NCBI RefSeq assembly: GCF_003054555.1
Contig: NZ_CP026304.1
Span: 7,626,001-7,690,000 of the forward strand
DNA: 64,000 bases
Source: Streptomyces lunaelactis
Lineage (GTDB): Bacteria > Actinomycetota > Actinomycetes > Streptomycetales > Streptomycetaceae
Reading direction: 5' to 3'
The notes beneath the pieces were generated by a model. That model was not told the origin of the DNA, ran no database searches, and was given only the letters and a program-made list of their open reading frames with translations. Numbering within the stretch: position 1 is the stretch's first letter; each line of letters begins with the position of its first letter. Below are positions 2,847 to 12,774 of this stretch, one piece after another. Made by a program: the position numbers and the translations under genes.

Positions 2847-3641
2847 TCAGCAGGGCTGGCGCCACACCCCCAGATCGAGCTTCTTGCGCATGGAGCTGAA
2901 CCCCAACTGCCGTGCCCGCTTGCAGAACGTGTCGACCGGCAGCGCGTACTCGACATGGAAGACCGCCTTGCCGGCCTCGACGAAGGGCGTCAGCGCCGCG
3001 CAGTCGCCGTACTGTGCGCACTCCTCGTTCACGGCGAAGTCGAAGTCCCCCACCAGCTGCGGCACTTGAGGGAGATCGTTCTTCAGCCCCACCGACAGGC
3101 CGCGGTCGTGCGCGAGGCGCGCGATCATGCGGTTGTACGCGAGCTGGTGTGCCGCGGTCAGCGGAAAGCCGGTCTCGTTGAGATAGGCGTCCAGCAGATC
3201 CGGCTCCACCGCGTCGAAGCCGCGCGCCCGGCAGATGTCGATGCGCTTCGCCATCAGCGGGCGCAGGATGTCGAGACGGCGGATGTCCAGCCAGCGCTCG
3301 CCCGCCCATCCGTTCTCGCCGCCCAGGACTGCGGCGGGGAACTTCCTGTGGTCGGGGCGGAAGGACTCCCACGCACCCGCGTTGATGTAGCAGATGACCT
3401 TGCGGCCGCTGCGGTGGAGCCGGCGGACGGTGGCCGCGTCGTTCTCGAAGCCGTCGATGTCATAGACCGGTACGTCGACGCGGTCGTCGATCCGGCCGTC
3501 GAGCTGCCACTGCCACGCGGTCCCGGGCCGCGGCAGCCACCGTGGCTCAGGCGTGGGTTCCGGCGTCGGCGCCGAGCAGGCGGCCAGCAGGAGGAGAGCG
3601 AGGGCCAGGAACAGGGTCCGCAGGCGTGGCGTGCGGTTCAT
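2847..3641 (-). CDS. GH114-type endo-alpha-1,4-polygalactosaminidase-like lipoprotein (Ega3-like)
   Basis: 264-residue secreted lipoprotein with lipobox LLLAAC (Cys22) and a short proline-rich linker. The TIM-barrel domain carries the landmarks of GH114: PVYDIDGF, KVICYINAGAWESFRPD, ERWLDIRR, FDAVEPDLLDAY, LSVGLKND, FAVNEECAQY and AVFHVEY. The family includes polygalactosaminidase and fungal Ega3, which cleave alpha-1,4-linked galactosamine polymers. The acidic residues in AVEPD and VNEEC are the likely catalytic pair. ATG overlaps the stop of the spherulin-4 gene (ATGA), so the two are translationally coupled. As the last gene of the 2.8-12.3 kb operon, it probably trims or releases the polymer made by the upstream genes. 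Confidence 0.85.
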   Translation of the reverse strand: MNRTPRLRTLFLALALLLLAACSAPTPEPTPEPRWLPRPGTAWQWQLDGRIDDRVDVPVYDIDGFENDAATVRRLHRSGRKVICYINAGAWESFRPDHRKFPAAVLGGENGWAGERWLDIRRLDILRPLMAKRIDICRARGFDAVEPDLLDAYLNETGFPLTAAHQLAYNRMIARLAHDRGLSVGLKNDLPQVPQLVGDFDFAVNEECAQYGDCAALTPFVEAGKAVFHVEYALPVDTFCKRARQLGFSSMRKKLDLGVWRQPC

Positions 3642-4297
3642 GAGGCCTTCCGGAGAGCGGGCGGCAGGGCGGACCAGGGGTTGGGGCCATGGCCGGGGAC
3701 GGCGCAGTGGACTGCGGCGCGGCGGAGTTCGGCGGTCCGGGCCGCGAGCCCGCAGAGCCCCCTCGGAACGCCGTGCACCAGATGGCAGAAGCGCGTCGGC
3801 GGGTGTCCGGCGGTCCAGGAGGGGGCGGCGGGCGCGGCCCGGTAGGTGTCCCAGTCGCCCTCGAAGGTGACCAGCAGATCGGCGAGGGTGGCATAGCCGG
3901 GAGCGGGGTGGACGCCCGGATTGAGCGCCAGGGTCCGCCCGCCCCGGGCGCGGGCGGCCCGGGTCAGCCGCCGGTAGTGACGCAGCCCGGCCGCGTCCGG
4001 GGCGACCTGATCGAGGAAGAACCCGTCCGTGCCGTACCAGTCGCGGTACCGCTCGAAGTCCTGGGCGACCAGCCGGGCCGGCCGGCGCCCGTAGTCGGTG
4101 TCCGCGTACCCCAGCACCCGGACATCCGCCGCCCGCAGCGCGCGTACCACGTCGGCGAACGCGGGGTCGGGGGCGGTGCCGGGCCCGTCGTCGATATTGA
4201 GCACGACGCCGTAGAGGAGGGGCGCGGAGACGACGAGCGCCTGCCAGGCATCGGGGTTGACGGCGGGGTGGACGTACATCGGCACGAGGAGCGTCAT
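3638..4297 (-). CDS. Spherulin-4 domain hydrolase (GH135/Sph3-like)
   Basis: About 219 residues spanning one TIM-barrel domain. Landmarks of the spherulin-4 family are VPMYVHP, VVLNIDDGPG, VLGYADTDYGRR, GTDGFFLDQVAP, LALNPG and LLVTFEGDW. In Aspergillus, Sph3 (GH135) is an endo-hydrolase needed to make galactosaminogalactan. The start at 4297 was preferred because upstream in-frame codons give a short atypical leader and a GGAGG site precedes it. No signal peptide is visible, unlike the adjacent GH114 lipoprotein, so cytoplasmic action or another export route is possible. Its stop overlaps the GH114 start. Confidence 0.85.
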   Translation of the reverse strand: MTLLVPMYVHPAVNPDAWQALVVSAPLLYGVVLNIDDGPGTAPDPAFADVVRALRAADVRVLGYADTDYGRRPARLVAQDFERYRDWYGTDGFFLDQVAPDAAGLRHYRRLTRAARARGGRTLALNPGVHPAPGYATLADLLVTFEGDWDTYRAAPAAPSWTAGHPPTRFCHLVHGVPRGLCGLAARTAELRRAAVHCAVPGHGPNPWSALPPALRKAS

Positions 4298-4379
4298 CCG
4301 CGACAGCCCTCCGGGACACGACAGTTGTCCCGGAGGCGACAATGCTCCGGTCCGGGGCGGATCTTCAGGACGAGGCGGA

Positions 4380-5288
4380 TCATCGCGCCGCCCGGGACGG
4401 GGTCCGGGACTCCCACAGGTCCGTGAGCGAGTCGGTCAAGGTGTGCTCCGGGTGCCAGTCCAGGGCGGCGCGCGCCGCCGCGATGTCCGCGCACTGCCAG
4501 GAGACGGCCGTCGAGCGGGCCGAGCCGTCGCCCGTCTCCTCGAGGTGGCCGCGGAATCCGGCCACCCGCACCAGGGACGCGGCCAGTTCCCGAGCGGCGG
4601 TCGCGCTGCCGCTGCCGATGTTGAGCACCGGCGGCAGCGGTCCCTGCGTGGTCGCCGCGCGGACGGCCGCGGCCGCCACGTCCCGTACATCGACGAAGTC
4701 ACGGTGCGCGGACAGGTCGCCGACCCGGACGACGCCTTCGTCGCCTGCCCGCACCAGCTCCGTGGCGAGCCGGCCCGCAAGGCCCGCGGGGGGCGCGCCC
4801 GGACCGACGGGGTTGAAGACCCGGAGTACGACCGCGTCGAGTCCCGAGGACGTCACGGCGACCGTCCCGGCGAGCTTGGTGGCCCCGTACGGACTCAGCG
4901 GCCGGGTGGCTGCCGATTCGGTGACCGGCTCGCCGGGTGCGGTCGGTCCGTACTCCGCGGCGGATCCGAGATGGACCAGCCGGGCGGCGGGCGCGGCGTC
5001 CCGCAGCGCCTCGCACAGCGCCGCCGGACCGCGTGCGTTGACATCGGTGAGGTGTACGGCGCTGCCGGCCACCAGGCCCGCGCAGTTGACGACGACGGAG
5101 GGCGCGGCCGCGTGCAGCGCGTCCGCGAGGACGCCGGGACCGGCCGTGAGGTCGAGCGGCACATCGGAGGCCGCCGACCGCCCGCCGACGAGCAGCCGCA
5201 CGCCCGGCAGGGCGCGCAGCAGCTCGGCGGTGTGCCCGCCCAGGAATCCGGTGGAGCCCAGGAGGAGGATGCGCACGGGAACCCTCAC
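4380..5288 (-). CDS. NAD-dependent sugar epimerase/dehydratase (extended SDR)
   Basis: 302 residues. The Rossmann motif is LLLGSTGFLGGHTAELL, the catalytic set is LGSAAEYG with PYGATKLAG (YxxxK), and RVFNPVGPG and AHRDFVDVRDVA follow. These belong to nucleotide-sugar epimerases and dehydratases. It starts with GTG at 5288, overlapping the stop of the upstream nucleotidyltransferase by 4 bp. Within the polysaccharide operon it is the best candidate for a UDP-hexosamine C4-epimerase or related reductase. The fungal GAG pathway uses Uge3 for that step, but substrate cannot be read from sequence. Confidence 0.8.
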   Translation of the reverse strand: MRVPVRILLLGSTGFLGGHTAELLRALPGVRLLVGGRSAASDVPLDLTAGPGVLADALHAAAPSVVVNCAGLVAGSAVHLTDVNARGPAALCEALRDAAPAARLVHLGSAAEYGPTAPGEPVTESAATRPLSPYGATKLAGTVAVTSSGLDAVVLRVFNPVGPGAPPAGLAGRLATELVRAGDEGVVRVGDLSAHRDFVDVRDVAAAAVRAATTQGPLPPVLNIGSGSATAARELAASLVRVAGFRGHLEETGDGSARSTAVSWQCADIAAARAALDWHPEHTLTDSLTDLWESRTPSRAAR

Positions 5289-5998
5289 GCTCCCTTGAGG
5301 AGGAGGCCGCGGTGGGTGGTGAACTCCGCGTTCGCCCGGTCGTAGTCGTCGGGCCGGCCGATGTCGAGCCAGTAGCCGTCGAAGTCGTAGGCGTGCGGCG
5401 GGTTCTGGGCCTTGAGCAGGTCCAGTACGAGCTCGTCGAAGCCCAGCGGCAGACCGGGCGTGTAGCCCGCGAGGGTGTCCCGGGTGAGTCCGTACACGCC
5501 CATCGAGACGCGGTAGTCCATGCTCGGCTTCTCGGCGAAGCCGACGACCTTGCCCAGCTCGGTGGTGAGTACGCCGAAGTCGATGGCGACCTTGCGGGCG
5601 TAGGTGGCGACGGTGAGCGGTGCGTCGGACTCGCGGTGCTGCCGGACGACGTCCCCGTAGTCGAGGTCGGTGAGGATGTCACCGTTCATGACGAGGAACT
5701 CGTCGGGCAGCCGGTCCATCATCGTCAGGAGCGGGCCCATGGTGCCGAGCGGGCTCTCCTCGGTGGAGTAGCCGACGCGCAGGCCCCACTGAGAGCCGTT
5801 GCCGACGTACGCGCGGATGATGTGTCCGAGGTGGCCGATGGCGATGGTGCAGCTGGTGAACCCGGACTGGGCCAGCTGGCGCAGCACTATCTCGAGGATC
5901 GCGTGCTGGTCGCCGATCGGCACCAGAGGCTTCGGCAAGGCGGTCGTGTACGGCCGCAGCCGGACGCCCTTGCCTCCTGCGAGGATCACTGCATGCAT
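5285..5998 (-). CDS. Sugar-phosphate nucleotidyltransferase (NDP-sugar pyrophosphorylase)
   Basis: 237 residues. The signature is MHAVILAGGKGVRLRPYT followed by LPKPLVPIG; the catalytic metal site is VMNGDILTD, and FAEKPSM and YWLDIGRPDDY follow. It activates a sugar-1-phosphate to an NDP-sugar. It lacks the C-terminal beta-helix seen in GlgC, so it is of the short RfbA/mannose-1-phosphate guanylyltransferase-like type. ATG at 5998 has GGGGAG 5 nt upstream. It lies between the LegB-like dehydratase and the epimerase, an arrangement reminiscent of Ptm/Leg nucleotide-sugar gene sets. The nucleotide and sugar used are unknown. Confidence 0.82.
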   Translation of the reverse strand: MHAVILAGGKGVRLRPYTTALPKPLVPIGDQHAILEIVLRQLAQSGFTSCTIAIGHLGHIIRAYVGNGSQWGLRVGYSTEESPLGTMGPLLTMMDRLPDEFLVMNGDILTDLDYGDVVRQHRESDAPLTVATYARKVAIDFGVLTTELGKVVGFAEKPSMDYRVSMGVYGLTRDTLAGYTPGLPLGFDELVLDLLKAQNPPHAYDFDGYWLDIGRPDDYDRANAEFTTHRGLLLKGA

Positions 5999-6121
5999 GG
6001 AGACTCCCCTGTGAGTCGCTTGCGGTCGCGGTCGGTCGATCGCGGCCGGACGTGACAGTCGGTTGTGCCAGCCGGTGGTGGCAGTCGGTGGTGGCAGTCG
6101 GACGTGCTCGGACGAGCGCGG

Positions 6122-7123
6122 TCAGATGTTGTAGATGCCGGTCTTGAAGCGGGCGAGGTTCGCCGGGTCGCGGAAGAAGTCGATGGTGTGCGCGAGCCCG
6201 TCCGCGAGTTCGTACTCGGGCTGCCAGCCGGTGGCCGTACGCAGCCGGGTGGCGTCCGCCACCAGCCGCATCACTTCGGAGCCCGCCGGCCGGATGCGCT
6301 CCTCGTCCTCGCGTACGTCGAGGTCGGTGTCCATCAACTTGCCGATGAGCCGGGTGAGTTCACCCACCGAGATCTCGCCGCCGGTCCCGGCGTTGAAGGT
6401 GCGGCCGACGACGGCTTCGGCCGGCGCCGTGCCGACGGTGAGAAAGGCGCGCGCGGTGTCCTTCACGTACAGGAAGTCGCGGGTGGGGCGCAGGTCCCCG
6501 AGGGTGATGACCCGCTCTCCGGCCGCGACCTGGCCGATGACGGTCGGGATGACCGCGCGCATCGACTGGCGCGGCCCGAAGGTGTTGAACGGGCGCAGCG
6601 TGACCACCGGAGTGCCGAAGCTGGCGTGGTAGCTGTCCGCCAGCCGGTCCCCGCCCGCCTTCGAAGCGGCGTACGGGGACTGGGTGTTGATGGGGTGGTC
6701 CTCGGTGATCGGCACGGTCTGCGCGGTGCCGTACGTCTCGCTGGTCGAGGTGTGCACCAGGCGCGGGATCCCCAGTCTGCGCACCACTTCCAGCACATTG
6801 AGCGTGCCCGTGACATTGGTGTCCACGTAACTGTGCGGAGCCTGGTAGGAGTACGGGATCGCGATGAGCGCGGCGAGGTGGTAGACGGCCTCGGCGCCCT
6901 CGGCGAGCTGATGGACGGAGCCCGGGTCGCGGATGTCCCCGAGGACGATCTCGACCTGGTCGAGGACGTCGGGGGAGAGGGTCTCCAGCCATCCGTAGGA
7001 GGAGAAGGAGTTGTACTGGGCCATGGCGCGGACCCGGAAGCCGGAGGCGACGAGCGTCTCGGTGAGATGGGATCCGATGAAGCCCTCGGCTCCGGTGACG
7101 GCGACGAGTGCGTTCGATGTCAC
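6122..7123 (-). CDS. LegB-like NAD-dependent nucleotide-sugar 4,6-dehydratase
   Basis: 333 residues from a GTG start at 7123 with AAAGGAG 9 nt upstream; the open frame runs further 5' but only as antisense-type sequence. Motifs include VTGAEGFIGSHLTE, YHLAALIAIPYSY, the catalytic HTSTSETYGTA with SPYAASKAGGD (YxxxK), LRPFNTFGPRQS and TRDFLYVKDTA. The ALIAIPYSYxxPxSYVDTN stretch is characteristic of LegB-type UDP-GlcNAc 4,6-dehydratases. The product would be a 4-keto-6-deoxy hexosamine nucleotide. This suggests a modified sugar enters the polymer, or that the protein acts here as an epimerase-like enzyme. Confidence 0.85.
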   Translation of the reverse strand: MTSNALVAVTGAEGFIGSHLTETLVASGFRVRAMAQYNSFSSYGWLETLSPDVLDQVEIVLGDIRDPGSVHQLAEGAEAVYHLAALIAIPYSYQAPHSYVDTNVTGTLNVLEVVRRLGIPRLVHTSTSETYGTAQTVPITEDHPINTQSPYAASKAGGDRLADSYHASFGTPVVTLRPFNTFGPRQSMRAVIPTVIGQVAAGERVITLGDLRPTRDFLYVKDTARAFLTVGTAPAEAVVGRTFNAGTGGEISVGELTRLIGKLMDTDLDVREDEERIRPAGSEVMRLVADATRLRTATGWQPEYELADGLAHTIDFFRDPANLARFKTGIYNI

Positions 7124-7164
7124 GAAAGCTGCTCCTTTTGTCGGTGGTTCGGTTGTGGAAGGGG

Positions 7165-8526
7165 TCAGCGGTGTGCGGTGGGCCGGCCGAGCAGCCGGCA
7201 GGCCCCGCCGACCAGAACGGCCGCCGCTGCGATACGAAAGATCAACTGGGTGGGGCCCGGTGGCAGCCCGGCCGACGGGGCGACGGCCTCCGCCGCCGCG
7301 GCGACGAGACATACGGCGGCCGGCATCCAGGCCACCGAGAACGCCTGGAGCAGCAGCGCCGTCCAGAGCACGGCCCCCAGGCCGAGCAGAGGCGCGGGAC
7401 CGGTACCCGCAGCCAGCGCGCCCAGCGCCAGCAGCGCCAGATACGCGCCGAGGCAGAGCGCCAGAGCCCGGCCCGCGCGCAGGGTGAAGCCGCGTGAGGT
7501 GGTGCTCTCGCGCAGCCCTGCGACGGCGAGCGAGCGGAAGCGGTACAGCAGCCACTCGGCGAAGCCCATGCTCAGGGTGAGTACGACGACCGAGCGCGGA
7601 TCATCGGCACCGGCCAGCGCCGCGAGCACGCCGGCGGCCAGCCCGAACAGCCCGTACGGCAGCGAGCGCAGCAGCTTGGGCGTGGCTCCGGCGGCCGTGG
7701 GCGCGGACCGCAGCGCGTCCCGAGTGGCGTGCCCGGCGGCGGCGACCGCGAGAAGCACCGTCGCCAGCAGCAGTCCCAGCGCGAGTGCCGCCGGGAGCCG
7801 CCACAGGAAGGTGGCTCCCGCACCCGCGGCGACGGGCAGCAGGGTGAGCAGCAGGGCCCGTTCACGGCCGAGGACGAGCAGGACGCTCGCCGCGGCGAGA
7901 TAGCAGGACTGCCCGGCGGCGAACGCCGCGCCGGTACCGGGCCCGGAGACGAGCAGGCCCGTGGCGGCGGCCCCGAGCGCACCGAGCGGGCCGCCGATCC
8001 GCAGGGTGCGTCCGGCGGCGGCCCGCCCCCCGGCCGCCAGCCGCAGATACGCCCGGTGGCTGAGCGCCTGGTTCCACGCCCAGGCGGCGAGCGCCGAGGC
8101 GATGAGCCCGGAGACGTCCGCCGTGCCGTGCCAGAGCCCGGCACCCAGGACGTACGCCAGTCCGGGCAGCGCGAAGACCAGACCGCGCAGTGCGCAGCGC
8201 AGATGGTCGGGCCGCCAGGGGTCGGGTGCGGGCGGCGGCTCCGGGTAGTGGCGGGGGACCCGTGCGTAGAGGTCCTCGGCGAGCGTGAACAGATCAGGAC
8301 GCGCGTAGCGTTCGGTGATCTGATCACCAGTCAGGCCATCGGACTCCAGGAGCGCGGCCACCTCGTACGGATGGACGGCGACCGCGACCTGCTCGACCAG
8401 CCGCTCGGCCAGCTCGTCGATCGGGTCCTCCGCCCAGCTGGGCCGGGCGCGGGTCCGGGACCGCGGTCTGGGTATGACGGGCAACGTGTCGCCCTCGCCG
8501 GGCACCAGGCGCAGCGGGCCGCTCAT
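7165..8526 (-). CDS. Polytopic membrane protein of the polysaccharide operon (candidate exporter)
   Basis: 453 residues. The first ~130 are soluble and probably cytoplasmic (PIDELAERLVEQVAVAVH, TERYARPDLFTLAEDLYARV). The rest forms roughly ten to twelve hydrophobic segments rich in Leu and Ala. I do not recognise a catalytic motif. ATG at 8526 overlaps the stop of the PelF-like glycosyltransferase (ATGA), so the two are translationally coupled. In Pel systems the GT4 enzyme PelF works with the membrane protein PelG, and in fungi the GAG synthase Gtb3 is thought to fuse a GT4 domain to membrane helices. By position this protein is the likely export or membrane partner; that is inference. Confidence 0.7.
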   Translation of the reverse strand: MSGPLRLVPGEGDTLPVIPRPRSRTRARPSWAEDPIDELAERLVEQVAVAVHPYEVAALLESDGLTGDQITERYARPDLFTLAEDLYARVPRHYPEPPPAPDPWRPDHLRCALRGLVFALPGLAYVLGAGLWHGTADVSGLIASALAAWAWNQALSHRAYLRLAAGGRAAAGRTLRIGGPLGALGAAATGLLVSGPGTGAAFAAGQSCYLAAASVLLVLGRERALLLTLLPVAAGAGATFLWRLPAALALGLLLATVLLAVAAAGHATRDALRSAPTAAGATPKLLRSLPYGLFGLAAGVLAALAGADDPRSVVVLTLSMGFAEWLLYRFRSLAVAGLRESTTSRGFTLRAGRALALCLGAYLALLALGALAAGTGPAPLLGLGAVLWTALLLQAFSVAWMPAAVCLVAAAAEAVAPSAGLPPGPTQLIFRIAAAAVLVGGACRLLGRPTAHR

Positions 8527-10022
8527 GCGAGAACCCCCGCGGGCTGCTCGGTCGCCCAGGTACCGGCCGCCGACTCGGCTGCCCCCAGGGCGAGTTCGAG
8601 ATAGATGGAGCGGAAGGTGTCGACCGTCTGCCGGAGTGTGAACTGCTCGATCACCCGCAGCCGCGCCGCATCGCCCATCGCCGCCCTGCGCGCGGGATCG
8701 CGCAGCAGCTCCAGCGCCGCACGGGCCATCGCCTCCGGCTCCCGAGGCGGCACGACGAGCCCACTGTCGCCGACGGCCTCGCGCACACCGCCGACATCGG
8801 TGGAGACGGTGGCCCGGCCGCAGGACATGGCCTCGATCAGCGTGAACGGGAAGCCCTCGCTGATGCTGGAGAGCATCACCACGTTGCCGGCCGCGTACGC
8901 GTCCCGTATGTCGTCCACGCGTCCCTCGAAGGTGACGGCATCGCCGTGTCCGAGCTCGGCGGCGAGCTTCTCGCAGCGCTCGCGGTACGCCTCGCCGCCG
9001 CGCGGCGTGCCGCCGAAGAGCCGCAGCCGCGCCCCGGGTATCTCCTTCCGTACGAGCGCGAAGGCGCGGATCAGCGTCTGAAGATCCTTGATCGGGTCGA
9101 CGCGGCCCGCCCAGCTGAGCGTGGGCGCACCGGGCTCGGGTCCCGCGGGCGGGAACGCCGCCGGATCGACGCCGTTGTAGACCGTGCGGATGAGCCGCGG
9201 GTCTGCCCCGCCGCGCTCCTCCCACAGCCGGTTGTAGCGATTGCCCGGCGTCACCAGCGAGGCCACGCGGTACGTCTCCTCGGCGAGCAGCCGGAAGAAG
9301 CCGAGCAGCAGCGCCTTCACCGGCCAGCGGTAGGGGCCGGTGCGGTAGCCGAGATAGCGCTCGCGCAGATAGACCCCGTGCTCGGTGAGCAACAGCGGTA
9401 CGCCGTGCAGCTGCCGGGCCGCCAGACCGGGCAGCGCCGCGATGCCCCCGCTGACCGCGTGCGCGACGCCGTGCTCGGGCGGCGCCGCTGCCAGTGGCCG
9501 CAGCGCGTGCTCCAGCAGGTCGGTGGCGGTCAGCGCGTCGTGCAGGGTGGGCCGGGCCGCGTACACCGGCAGATCGCGCCGGTTCCAGACGCCCACCAGG
9601 GTGCGGACGGCCCGGTCGGTGCGCAGCGCCGGTGCGAGTACGCCGTCACGGGCCAAGTGGGCCAGCTCGTACAGCGCGGGCCCGAAGTGCGCCTCCGCCG
9701 CCGGGTCGAGCAGCGAGGTCAGGAACCTCTCGTAGGCGGCCATCAGCCGCCGCAGCCGACGGCCGCGCGGCGCGGCCCCGGTCGGGTCGGGACCCCACAT
9801 GGGGACGGAGACGGGCGGTGAGACATGGGCGGGCAGCTCCCAGGCGAGGGATTCCCGTCCGGTGCCGGTCACCGCGATGACCTGGAAGTCGAAGTCGGGC
9901 ATTCCGCCGACGAGTTGATCGCACCAGACGCTCACGCCGCCGTGGCTGTGCGGATAGGTGCCTTCGGTGAGGAGGGTGACCATGGGCGCGCCGGACCGCG
10001 GCGCGCGAAGGGACTCGGCCAT
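8523..10022 (-). CDS. PelF-like GT4 glycosyltransferase
   Basis: 499 residues. The N-terminal signature VTLLTEGTYPHSHGGVSVWC is that of the DUF3492/PelF group. The GT-B C-terminal half shows YNGVDPAAF, WAGRVDPIKDL, RLRLFGGTPRG, VTFEGRVDDI and the EX7E region SISEGFPFTLIEAMSCG. PelF polymerises N-acetylhexosamine in Pel exopolysaccharide. ATG at 10022 has GGGGAG 9 nt upstream. It is the only recognisable glycosyltransferase in the operon, so it is the expected polymerase. Sugar specificity (GlcNAc, GalNAc or galactose) cannot be read from the sequence. Confidence 0.88.
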   Translation of the reverse strand: MAESLRAPRSGAPMVTLLTEGTYPHSHGGVSVWCDQLVGGMPDFDFQVIAVTGTGRESLAWELPAHVSPPVSVPMWGPDPTGAAPRGRRLRRLMAAYERFLTSLLDPAAEAHFGPALYELAHLARDGVLAPALRTDRAVRTLVGVWNRRDLPVYAARPTLHDALTATDLLEHALRPLAAAPPEHGVAHAVSGGIAALPGLAARQLHGVPLLLTEHGVYLRERYLGYRTGPYRWPVKALLLGFFRLLAEETYRVASLVTPGNRYNRLWEERGGADPRLIRTVYNGVDPAAFPPAGPEPGAPTLSWAGRVDPIKDLQTLIRAFALVRKEIPGARLRLFGGTPRGGEAYRERCEKLAAELGHGDAVTFEGRVDDIRDAYAAGNVVMLSSISEGFPFTLIEAMSCGRATVSTDVGGVREAVGDSGLVVPPREPEAMARAALELLRDPARRAAMGDAARLRVIEQFTLRQTVDTFRSIYLELALGAAESAAGTWATEQPAGVLA

Positions 10023-10178
10023 GTGGAACTGCTCCCCTGGGTGCGGGTAAGGGAAGGGGGCGCCTCGCCCGTCGGGCGGGCAGGGCGCGTCGAGCGTGCG
10101 GTGCCGGGGCAGGGCTCGGCCGGCCCCGGGACCGCGTGGAGTGGGTGCGTACCGGTGGGTGGCCTCGGGTAGGGGTCG
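10023..10178 (-). other. Intercistronic gap within the polysaccharide operon
   Basis: 156 bp separate the deacetylase stop from the start of the PelF-like gene, the largest gap in the operon. No open frame of its own was seen. It is C/G-rich near the distal end and contains the ribosome-binding site GGGGAG of the next gene. No strong terminator hairpin was seen, so read-through from the deacetylase is plausible, although a secondary promoter cannot be excluded. Confidence 0.4.
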
Positions 10179-12332
10179 TCAGCCCGTCACGCCGTACGGA
10201 ACGTGGCGGAGCACGCCCGACGGCAGCGGCAGCCGTGGTGCGGCGGGCGAGACCTGTGGGGCCTTCGCCGCCTTGCCGGTGCGGGCTCCGGCGGGCACCG
10301 AGGCGGCCGGCAGGGAGAGCGTGACCCGGTCCTGGAGCAGTCCGGGCGCGACCCAGCCGGAGGCCGAACCGGCGTACGGGCTGCCGAAGGCGGCGTCGCC
10401 GAGGAACAGGCTCTGCCGGGTGCCGGCCGGCATGGTGGCGGTGACCCTGACCCCGCTGGGCGCCTGGACGGTGACGTCGTCGCCGATGCGGTACGCGCTC
10501 ACGTGCCCCGCCTTGACGGCGGTGTTCCAGGCGGCGCGGTGGCGCAGCTCCGCCCCGATGTCGCGCTGGCGCAGACTGACCAGCGGGGTGTTGTCCGCGT
10601 ACAGCGCGGTGTAACCGTCGAGGATGCGGTTCAGCACCGGGTAGACGATGCGGTCCTCGGCGAGGTTGGACTGGTGGACGTAGTGCGGCCGGGGGTCGTT
10701 GGCCAGGACATGGCCGAGACCGATGCGGGCCTCCAGCGGCACCACGTAGTCCGTGTACCCGGTGACCGTGTCGAGCGGTTCCTCCAGGCAGGTGGAGTTG
10801 GCCGCGGTCTCACAGATGCCGCTGCCGCCGTCGGCCGCCCGGGTGTAGATCCAGTTGTACTCGTCGATCATCTCGGTCGTGCGGCCCGCGTTGTAGAAGA
10901 CGTTCATCGGGTAGCGGGGCACCGTGAGGGCGGGGCCGACCCGGCGCTGGGCGCGGTCGCGGGAGTTGTCGGAGCCGAGCCAGGTGACGGAGTTGTCGGC
11001 GAGGGCGGGCCCGAGGTTCGGGTTGTCGTCGGGCTGCTGAGGCAGGATCTTCAGCCCGGAGTGCTCACCCGTGACCAACTCGTCGTTCTGCAGCGGGAGT
11101 CCGGCGCGCAGGCCCCAGCCGCGGTTGTCCGCGATCTGCCCGGAGATCTCGGCCCTGGTGACGTACCGCGTACTGCCGTCGGCGTTCTCGGCGCACACCC
11201 AGGGGACTACGGTGACGTTCTGGACGCAGCCGAGGAAGGGGTGGTTGTAGGTGTGGTTCACCCAGCGGTAGGCGTTCTTGTCGGCGATCAGCTGCTGCGC
11301 GAGCGGGTCGCTGCCGCCGTTCTCCTCCTTGAACAGTTCGCTGCCGCCGCCGTTGAAGACCATGTCGAGGGTGAAGCGCTTGGCGGCGGACCACTGGGCC
11401 GCGTACCGCGCGTCCGCGGGCGTCATCCGGATCGGGTCCGGCTCGCCCTGTCCCGGTGGGCAGTCCACGTCGCCCGGGGTGCAGTTGAGCACGGTGTCCC
11501 AGCGGTCGTCGGCGCCGAAGACGTCGTCCACGTGGACGGCGAAGTAGTTGCGGGCCGCGCCGATCCGGACGCCCTGGGTCAGCCAGTTCACGATGCCGCG
11601 GGCGAGCAGCCGGAACTGCTGCTGGTACTGGTTGTAGACGAAGGTGACGACCAGTTCGCGACGGCCGTCGTGCCGGTACTCACCGACGATCGACCCGCGC
11701 TCCTGCGAGCCGGGCAGCGGTGCGTCGACGTAGCTGGTGAAGTCCGCGCCGGCGGCGGGCTTGGCGACGTGGGCGTAACTCTCGCCCACAGCGGGGGAGT
11801 TGTCCTCGAAGGGCACGGCTCCGTCGAGATAGCCGAAGGGACCGGCCTTGCCCGCGGCCGTCACCCCTGCCTGCGCACCGTCCAGCGAGCCGCTGTAGCC
11901 GCCGTTGACCGGGTGGTCCAGACCGACCTCGGGGCGTGCGTAGGTGTACGCGTCGACCTGCGGGATCGCGAAGGTCTTCTCGTACGAGACCAGGGCCGCG
12001 AGCTCAGCGGCGGCCACGCCGGCCGGGCTGTCGTTGGGCAGCACCACTGCCTGGAACTTGGCGCGTTGACGCCCGTCCACGGTGTCGGACAGGAAGCCCG
12101 CGTCGATCACAGGCCGGTTCGTCCGGGTGAGATCGAGCAGGGTGTACGGCGTTCCCGAACCGTCGAGTTCGGCGGCGATGGCCGCGGTGGCGGGCCCCCC
12201 GTCGTCCACCACCAGCACTTTCAGATCGATACGTGGTGACGGTGCCGCGACGGCTCCGGCGGCCGGTGCGGCGAGCGCCAGCAAGAGTGCACTCGCAGTG
12301 GACAAGGCAGCCGTGTGGACGGTGCGCCTCAT
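10179..12332 (-). CDS. Secreted Agd3-like (CE18-type) polysaccharide deacetylase
   Basis: 717 residues with a Sec signal peptide (MRRTVHTAALSTASALLLAL, cleavage near AGAVAAPSP). An N-terminal alpha/beta domain (KVLVVDDGGPATAAIAAEL) precedes the NodB-like catalytic part. That part carries YFAVHVDDVFGADDRWD (metal-binding Asp pair) and VNHTYNHPFLG (HxxxH metal motif), as in fungal Agd3, which partially deacetylates galactosaminogalactan. A proline/alanine-rich tail follows. ATG at 12332 was chosen over the codon at 12359 because GGGGAGG lies 9 nt upstream and it begins the signal peptide. It is the first gene of the operon. Deacetylation would make the polymer cationic and adhesive; that role is inferred. 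Confidence 0.82.
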   Translation of the reverse strand: MRRTVHTAALSTASALLLALAAPAAGAVAAPSPRIDLKVLVVDDGGPATAAIAAELDGSGTPYTLLDLTRTNRPVIDAGFLSDTVDGRQRAKFQAVVLPNDSPAGVAAAELAALVSYEKTFAIPQVDAYTYARPEVGLDHPVNGGYSGSLDGAQAGVTAAGKAGPFGYLDGAVPFEDNSPAVGESYAHVAKPAAGADFTSYVDAPLPGSQERGSIVGEYRHDGRRELVVTFVYNQYQQQFRLLARGIVNWLTQGVRIGAARNYFAVHVDDVFGADDRWDTVLNCTPGDVDCPPGQGEPDPIRMTPADARYAAQWSAAKRFTLDMVFNGGGSELFKEENGGSDPLAQQLIADKNAYRWVNHTYNHPFLGCVQNVTVVPWVCAENADGSTRYVTRAEISGQIADNRGWGLRAGLPLQNDELVTGEHSGLKILPQQPDDNPNLGPALADNSVTWLGSDNSRDRAQRRVGPALTVPRYPMNVFYNAGRTTEMIDEYNWIYTRAADGGSGICETAANSTCLEEPLDTVTGYTDYVVPLEARIGLGHVLANDPRPHYVHQSNLAEDRIVYPVLNRILDGYTALYADNTPLVSLRQRDIGAELRHRAAWNTAVKAGHVSAYRIGDDVTVQAPSGVRVTATMPAGTRQSLFLGDAAFGSPYAGSASGWVAPGLLQDRVTLSLPAASVPAGARTGKAAKAPQVSPAAPRLPLPSGVLRHVPYGVTG

Positions 12333-12774
12333 GGTGTCTGTTCCTCCCCGGAAGGGCATGCCGGACGTCGGTCCGGCATGCCCTGGCCCCCCAGCGGTGG
12401 ACGGTGCGCGTCTCGACGCCCCGCGTGTCCCGCTCTCTGTTGGATCACATAGTGGGGCGCGGTTTGGGGGAACTGTGTGGGCATTGTGAAACCTGGCGCA
12501 AAGTGGCTGCGTTGCTGCTGCGGGGGCGATGGGCGGATTGCGGCCTTCTGGGCCACTGCGAAGCGGTTGTCCGCCCCCGGCCCGGGCCCGGTCATCCAGG
12601 TGGGGACGGCCGAAAGCGATTGCCGGTCCACGGATGACCTTCAGGGGTCTGGACCGAACAAGGTCCGGGAACGCGACTCGCCGGATTCAGCCAAGGGGCG
12701 ATCACTCGGAGACCGGCACAACCGACAAGAGATTCGGTCTGGACAAAAATAGTTGTCGGTGAGAGCGTGGAGCC
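12333..12774. promoter_or_regulatory. Divergent promoter region of the polysaccharide operon and the ArsR gene
   Basis: 442 bp between two divergent starts with no convincing gene. It must hold the promoter for the eight-gene minus-strand operon and that of the ArsR-type gene. AT-richer patches occur near 12425-12500 (CACATAGTGGGG, ATTGTGAAACC) and at 12720-12760. A clear inverted repeat sits close to the ArsR start and is listed separately. I could not assign -35/-10 elements with confidence. Confidence 0.5.
12721..12760. promoter_or_regulatory. Inverted repeat upstream of the ArsR-type gene (possible operator)
   Basis: ACCGACAA at 12721-12728 is matched by a perfect inverted copy TTGTCGGT at 12753-12760, with a 24-bp spacer. 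The second arm ends 14 bp before the ATG at 12775. The position suggests an autoregulatory operator for the adjacent helix-turn-helix protein, or a 5' leader stem-loop. ArsR-type regulators often bind such dyads near their own promoter. Confidence 0.4.

Follow-up and report, generated by a model that had tools for sequence, protein, structure and literature searches.

We here describe a predicted operon of eight minus-strand genes in Streptomyces lunaelactis, which we read, with slightly better than an even chance of being right, as a streptomycete exopolysaccharide operon of the Pel/galactosaminogalactan (GAG) type wherein a nucleotide-sugar cassette feeds in a 6-deoxy sugar, most likely a 6-deoxy-hexosamine. 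The operon is found in a window of 64,000 bp (the whole stretch of DNA analyzed; contig NZ_CP026304.1, positions 7,626,001 to 7,690,000) from a genome of 8.57 Mb. Two related types of this operon occur in Streptomyces, with type A, represented by the window, having a cassette of dehydratase, nucleotidyltransferase and short-chain dehydrogenase/reductase (SDR) genes, and type B being without it. Judged by the protein families encoded, many Streptomyces carry a bacterial counterpart of the Aspergillus adhesive-polymer cluster, with an added sugar cassette. An initial annotation, made from the letters of the window, had proposed eight minus-strand genes at 2847-12332, and all of these were found in that place and with the family types it had given, as follows.

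10179..12359, minus strand: deacetylase, Agd3-type CE18, secreted (726 aa, signal-like N-terminus)
8523..10022, minus strand: PelF-type glycosyltransferase of family 4 (GT4), predicted polymer synthase (499 aa)
7165..8526, minus strand: polytopic membrane protein, predicted MOP/MATE flippase fold (453 aa)
6122..7123, minus strand: LegB-type NAD-dependent 4,6-dehydratase (333 aa, GTG start)
5285..5998, minus strand: sugar-1-phosphate nucleotidyltransferase (237 aa)
4380..5288, minus strand: extended SDR of 4-ketoreductase or 4-epimerase type (302 aa)
3638..4297, minus strand: GH135 (spherulin-4/Sph3-type) hydrolase, without signal peptide (219 aa)
2847..3641, minus strand: GH114 (Ega3-type) endo-galactosaminidase lipoprotein (264 aa)

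The junctions of this layout comprised three 4-bp overlaps, including those of the membrane-protein gene with the GT4 gene and of the GH114 gene with the GH135 gene, and gaps of 156 (the largest), 41, 123 and 82 bp. An alternative ATG of the deacetylase gene at 12332 would give a protein of 717 aa and agrees with the end coordinate of the initial annotation, and the GH135 gene has a possible TTG start at 4342. A tRNA call at 4385-4473 overlapped the SDR gene and was taken as spurious.

A pattern scan with one genome per species gave 528 stretches in which a deacetylase relative is encoded, and the best 80 loci were kept; these were all from Streptomyces or Actinacidiphila and, as the closest relatives, lean towards this operon type. 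Sixty-eight of them covered 10.5 kb or more, counted from the start of the deacetylase gene, and in 47 of these 68 the whole set of eight genes kept its order, so that the arrangement is not due to chance. Among these 68 close relatives, which do not represent all CE18 operons, the GT4, dehydratase, nucleotidyltransferase and SDR genes were each present in every locus, with the deacetylase gene in 67 (its absence from L033 being a miss of the open reading frame step), the membrane-protein gene likewise in 67 (missed at the same step in L026), GH135 in 65 and GH114 in 51, the latter being missed or lying beyond the end of the stretch in the other 17. By median identity to the window, the dehydratase and the nucleotidyltransferase were the two best conserved proteins of the operon. 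The deacetylase family was common in Streptomyces and not universal, with a match in 88 of 199 genomes. An orthologue of the nucleotidyltransferase (at least 74% identity) was found in 48 of the same 199 genomes, and in 42 of those, as counted by eye and with deacetylase matches that were partial or split (G824, G668, G765) included, a deacetylase match lay no more than about 7 kb away on the same contig. For the remaining six, the deacetylase was either on a different contig, presumably as a result of contig breaks (G746, G797, G792), or there was none nearby (G101, G771, G695). In wider samples, a narrow profile detected deacetylase relatives in 18 of the 296 genomes that represented the class, and a broader one in 13 of the 396 that represented the phylum. 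No fungal name was seen among the 120 listed of 1986 matches, some of which carried no name.

The relation of the window deacetylase to fungal Agd3 became evident by use of a family profile. Alone, the protein had no significant Pfam or NCBIfam match, with the sole Pfam match at E up to 10, TrmO_C (E 0.21), being at chance level, and Agd3 was not recovered from the PDB using either the single sequence or the narrower profile A1. Profile A2, an alignment of the window deacetylase with 16 relatives, gave Agd3 (6nwz) as its top PDB match with E 4.3e-14, and 10 of the 17 members matched PF25115 (Agd3_CE) and 3 of the 17 matched CBM87_Agd3. Foldseek with a model of the deacetylase also had 6nwz as its top match (E 5e-17), which we count as supporting only, the model being of low confidence (mean predicted local distance difference test score 58). 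All four catalytic motifs of Agd3, i.e. Asp-Asp, HxxxH, Arg and His (PMC7229062), were present in the window deacetylase as aligned, and D278 D279, H369, H373, R482 and H562 did not vary in any of the 110 type A and type B deacetylases that passed a 60% coverage filter, by which gutted copies were excluded. The motif Arg was not conserved in the deacetylase of the distant locus L141. On the basis of the family profile, we consider the window deacetylase to be of the CE18/Agd3 type.

The GT4 protein scored 167.2 bits with the NCBIfam PelF model NF038011 (cut-off 100) and matched PF11997 with E 8e-58. For the membrane protein, no family model matched, there was no Pfam match even at E up to 10, and hmmscan gave no match with the PelG family PF16933; searching the genome with PF16933 gave no match over the cut-off and a single one below it elsewhere (21.3 versus 29 bits). 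Structure prediction nonetheless gave a MOP/MATE flippase fold. Since PelG belongs to the MOP superfamily, the membrane protein may fill the PelG role. The initial annotation had stated that PelA, PelB, PelD and PelG genes were missing and that the locus was no ordinary Pel locus; this holds insofar as no PelG family match was obtained, whereas the predicted flippase fold of the membrane protein makes the synthase look more like that of Pel than had been thought. No model for PelA, PelB or PelD matched among the eight proteins, which were the extent of the search for these three.

The two hydrolases were assigned with high scores. GH135 matched PF12138 (Spherulin4) with 116.6 bits (cut-off 30.2, E 2e-33) and had fungal Sph3 (5c5g, E 1.1e-13) as its best PDB match; its D96, N126 and E146, found in 97 of 97 sequences, align with the Asp, Asn and Glu of Sph3. 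GH114 matched PF03537 with 277.6 bits (cut-off 27, E 8e-83), its best PDB match was fungal Ega3 (6oj1, E 5.6e-53), and its D148 and E206, found in 70 of 70 sequences, were taken by alignment and numbering as D189 and E247, the catalytic residues named for Ega3 (PMC12054363). The Agd3-like deacetylase, the PelF-like GT4 enzyme and both hydrolases of the initial annotation were thereby borne out, the deacetylase by profile A2, the Pfam matches of its relatives and the catalytic motifs, the GT4 enzyme by exceeding the PelF cut-off, and the hydrolases by Pfam scores, fungal PDB matches and conserved catalytic residues. With CE18, GH135, GH114 and a PelF-type synthase present, and with catalytic residues conserved, a partly deacetylated hexosamine polymer, which had also been suggested, is the likely product.

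We found, moreover, that a hydrophobic N-terminus, defined by a mean hydropathy over 15 residues of at least 1.8, is missing from GH135 in 72 of 73 type A loci and in 24 of the 25 loci of type B; with upstream starts allowed, one was seen in 1 of 73 and 1 of 25, respectively. As controls, CE18 passed the same threshold in 73 of 82 type A and 24 of 28 type B loci and GH114 in 37 of the 54 type A and all 16 type B loci, as did the GH135 proteins of L165 and L166 when upstream starts were allowed. A lipobox-like motif was seen in GH114 from 52 of 54 type A and 14 of 16 type B loci. Because a signal-like N-terminus is absent, GH135 is probably cytoplasmic, unlike fungal Sph3; it does not share the membrane-bound placement of Sph3 on the outside, a difference that bears on its location and not on its membership of GH135. 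Sph3 prefers acetylated GAG (PMC12054363) and Ega3 deacetylated GAG (PMC7229062), preferences that would fit with GH135 inside and GH114 outside, and a division of labour with GH135 acting inside before deacetylation and GH114 at the surface after it is consistent with this analogy.

Turning to the cassette, the dehydratase scored 448.7 bits with the LegB model TIGR04180, just below the cut-off of 475 and with the next family at 171.9, and carried the motifs T127-S128-E129 and Y151, K155 (YxxxK) in 78 of 78 sequences. The nucleotidyltransferase matched PF00483 with E 3e-39, its nearest NCBIfam model being mannose-1-phosphate guanylyltransferase at 130 bits, far below the cut-off of 440. The SDR matched PF01370 with E 1e-36, had S109, E112, Y113, Y134 and K138 in 77 of 77 sequences and found as PDB neighbours 6wjb (an NAD-dependent epimerase/dehydratase, the best match), GDP-4-keto-6-deoxyhexose reductases and UDP-glucose 4-epimerases. 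No clear equivalent of the fungal Uge3 was found in the operon, as the dehydratase (146 bits) and the SDR (58 bits) were both below the cut-off of the galE model (262), and three GalE proteins exceeding that cut-off are encoded elsewhere in the S. lunaelactis genome. LegB of Campylobacter dehydrates GDP-N-acetylglucosamine (PMC7439481). For three cassette enzymes of these types, the simplest product would be a nucleotide-linked 6-deoxy sugar, and an N-acetylated one would suit the deacetylase of the operon.

Two further findings touched upon these sugar genes. Elsewhere in the same genome (L212:6485-8961), a MurG-like glycosyltransferase gene (246 bits, cut-off 250) overlaps by 4 bp with a gene for a second LegB-like dehydratase having 50% identity to that of the operon; considered as a guide to the substrate, this gene with its MurG-like neighbour did not settle the matter. 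Just beyond the operon end, at 1001-2218 of the window and on the opposite (plus) strand, another sugar-1-phosphate nucleotidyltransferase with a GlmU-like hexapeptide domain is encoded, which had merely weak local matches in the 80 best relative loci.

Type B operons have the gene order deacetylase-GT4-membrane protein-GH135-GH114, and GT4 and CE18 were found in all 28 of them, the membrane protein and GH135 in 25 each and GH114 in 16. The dehydratase, nucleotidyltransferase and SDR genes were absent from 28 of 28; as 20 of these loci had been picked for lacking a nearby nucleotidyltransferase, the absence of that gene is circular there, while the absence of dehydratase and SDR is independent of how the loci were picked. 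Ten Streptomyces loci chosen by lower deacetylase score alone included nine without the cassette and one (L133) with it. One of those nine, L132 (G243), has a type-B-like deacetylase by itself, with no GT4, membrane-protein, GH135 or GH114 gene found in its 20-kb stretch, and was left out of type B. In a GT4 tree of 61 rows, using 24 of 87 type A sequences, each type grouped as a clade of its own (type A 96/93, type B 100/98). The CE18 tree was less firm for type A (94/93) and did not resolve type B (57/9). Some genomes (G057, G143) have both types together.

Deacetylation appears, from gene content, to have been lost repeatedly in type A, in that four loci keep the synthase with the deacetylase gene either gutted (L143, L194) or not found using tblastn (L192, L193), and with GT4, cassette and GH135 genes remaining in all four. 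The S. lunaelactis genome itself has a type B remnant at C1:2373890-2375987 (L126:7890-9987), with a deacetylase stub of 159 codons, composed of parts of both gene ends with the middle missing, followed by GH135 and GH114; neither GT4 nor membrane-protein gene was found there. A third PelF-like cluster of this genome, L127:9559-14508 (C1:5657559-5662508), encodes a GT4 (45%), a membrane protein, an SDR (45%) and a GH135; its 20-kb stretch showed neither a deacetylase nor a GH114 gene.

The nucleotide-sugar module is variable around a steadier core, because loci that are related by that core differ in their sugar genes. Thus, a true GalE (336 bits, cut-off 262) adjoins GT4 in L138, and in the distant actinomycete L140 a dehydratase with 63% identity is encoded beside the GT4 and CE18 genes, with the nucleotidyltransferase and SDR fused to one protein of 581 aa (L140:11804-13549) beside that LegB-type dehydratase. 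In the CE18-GT4 operons of L141 and L197, the LegB-type dehydratase is replaced, the sugar genes encoding a nucleotidyltransferase, an SDR, a nucleotide-sugar dehydrogenase and a second SDR, the latter carrying a TSE motif in L141. No cassette gene was found using tblastn in L139, L164-L167 or L169.

Taking these findings together, a pathway can be outlined in which the PelF-type GT4 would polymerise an N-acetylated hexosamine from a cytoplasmic nucleotide sugar and the MOP-fold membrane protein would move the chain across the membrane. Cytoplasmic GH135 would trim or clear the still-acetylated chain inside, secreted CE18 would strip acetyl groups outside and give a cationic, adhesive polymer, and the GH114 lipoprotein would cut deacetylated stretches at the cell surface. 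The cassette would be dedicated to providing a nucleotide-activated sugar of the 6-deoxy type, a 6-deoxy-hexosamine being the likeliest, and for that reason the type A polymer probably uses another building block than plain GAG. In this outline gene content, families, catalytic residues, conservation, the A/B split and the signal-less GH135 are observed, and the substrates of the enzymes, the direction of each step and the identity of the sugar are what we infer from them. More tentatively, at rather less than an even chance, the core (GT4, flippase, CE18, GH135 and GH114) might be seen as a chassis that is fed, in different actinobacteria, with different amino sugars altered at C-6. Type B and L138 would take plain N-acetylgalactosamine (GalNAc), type A a 6-deoxy-hexosamine resembling fucosamine or quinovosamine, and L141 and L197, with their nucleotide-sugar dehydrogenase, an amino sugar that is uronic or shortened at C-6. 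Among the cationic polymers of the Pel/GAG class, that of type A would then, to our knowledge, be the first 6-deoxy one, with its acetylated chain edited by cytoplasmic GH135 before export.

Some of our findings weigh against a 6-deoxy sugar. The PDB neighbours of the SDR include 4-epimerases besides the reductases, SDR relatives exist without a LegB-type dehydratase (L127, L141), and the sites with fixed differences between types A and B were few (3 in CE18, 2 in GH135, 0 in GH114, 2 in the membrane protein and 12 in GT4), which does not help that reading. The same findings lend themselves to an alternative that we hold to be somewhat unlikely, namely that the product is an ordinary GAG- or Pel-like polymer of GalNAc, galactosamine and perhaps galactose, with the SDR being the 4-epimerase that provides UDP-GalNAc, as Uge3 does, and with the other two cassette enzymes adding a minor decoration or working for some other glycan. 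Such an SDR would be in keeping with 6wjb as best match and UDP-glucose 4-epimerases among the further ones, with its L127 relative accompanying GT4 and GH135 where neither dehydratase nor nucleotidyltransferase is present, with the lack of any fixed A/B difference in GH114 and with the GalE adjoining GT4 in L138. Presence of dehydratase and nucleotidyltransferase in 68 of 68 loci, as the two best conserved genes of the operon, is, however, much for a minor decoration, and the genome already has its three GalE proteins elsewhere.

It could also be that the sugar of the cassette goes into a cell-wall glycan or a natural product apart from the polymer, its place in the operon being due to chance or co-regulation only. 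Type B operons do manage without it, and the same type of dehydratase adjoins a MurG-like glycosyltransferase elsewhere in the genome, but the cassette lies within the operon in all 68 close relatives and a related one recurs beside GT4 and CE18 in the distant L140, making this explanation improbable. The least probable is a scavenging or competition system, not biosynthetic, in which the hydrolases and the deacetylase attack, or defend against, foreign GAG or Pel of moulds or bacteria. An endogalactosaminidase of Streptomyces griseus is known (cited in PMC7229062 and PMC12054363) and the L126 remnant retains GH135 and GH114 after loss of the synthase; yet the synthase, the predicted flippase and the cassette share the operon with these enzymes, including three 4-bp overlaps, and a GH135 without signal-like N-terminus is unlikely to reach an outside polymer by the usual routes. 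We hence retain, at the strength given at the outset, the reading of a Pel/GAG-type operon with a 6-deoxy sugar cassette.

In both fungi and bacteria, cationic polymers of galactosamine act in the matrix and in adhesion. For pellet formation and surface attachment of Streptomyces, poly-N-acetylglucosamine produced by MatAB is on record (PMC5972031), and a hexosamine polymer of these bacteria could have a bearing on both. The fungal cluster may have come from bacteria. Paralogous Streptomyces operons with and without the sugar cassette offer a natural comparison for polymer composition, and the signal-less bacterial GH135 becomes directly testable.

The Pel system consists of pelABCDEFG. In its Gram-positive form it is arranged as pelDEADAFG (PMC7112168). 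In common with Pel, the S. lunaelactis operon has, by its sequence families, a PelF over the cut-off, a MOP-fold partner probably in the PelG role and deacetylation of a hexosamine polymer. It differs in that there is no PelG match over the cut-off in the genome and no PelD, PelE or PelA match among the eight proteins, and in having a CE18 deacetylase together with GH135 and GH114, not GH166, as hydrolases. With the GDP-linked early half of the legionaminic acid pathway (PtmE, LegB; PMC4481668, PMC7439481) it shares a nucleotidyltransferase and a LegB-type dehydratase, whereas the SDR takes the place of the LegC aminotransferase and the operon has no later legionaminic acid genes.

The GAG cluster of Aspergillus, as listed in PMC4817252, contains uge3, gtb3, agd3, ega3 and sph3 only. 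It has CE18, GH135 and GH114 in common with the window operon, along with a glycosyltransferase thought to make and export the polymer. The window operon, in contrast, has no clear Uge3, a separate GT4 and membrane protein and a 4,6-dehydratase cassette, and its GH135 is without signal-like N-terminus. Sph3, on the other hand, is a membrane-bound enzyme, its proposed site of action being the point at which the polymer exits the cell (PMC12054363). The claim of a full GAG parts list can accordingly not be kept, as dehydratase, nucleotidyltransferase and SDR stand where Uge3 was expected. Nor is this kind of locus undescribed, as had been thought possible, since operons of the kind, including Actinobacteria and spherulin-4, are already in PMC7229062; what stands of the initial annotation overall is hence the processing families, the PelF-type synthase and the likely hexosamine polymer, not the complete pathway.

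In that article, Bamford et al. (2020) reported Agd3 homologues in 45 bacterial species, with agd3 in or near operons of carbohydrate-active enzymes in 30 of the 35 species in their tree, and discussed transfer to fungi. All of their operons have a glycosyltransferase and a membrane protein, GH114 is highly consistent, and spherulin-4 is found in some Actinobacteria (PMC7229062). The window operon belongs to that kind, as it combines an Agd3 homologue with a cytoplasmic glycosyltransferase, a membrane protein of multispanning type, GH114 and spherulin-4. The main-text section on these operons, as distinct from its figures and supplements, mentions no sugar cassette, two types per genus, flippase fold or cytoplasmic GH135, and in the open-licence PMC literature, those figures and supplements aside and as far as the text parts covered, we found no report of the cassette, the A/B split, the flippase fold or the GH135 location. 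Beyond the published kind of operon, the predicted flippase fold, the A and B types, the signal-less GH135 and the losses of the deacetylase are what the present analysis adds.

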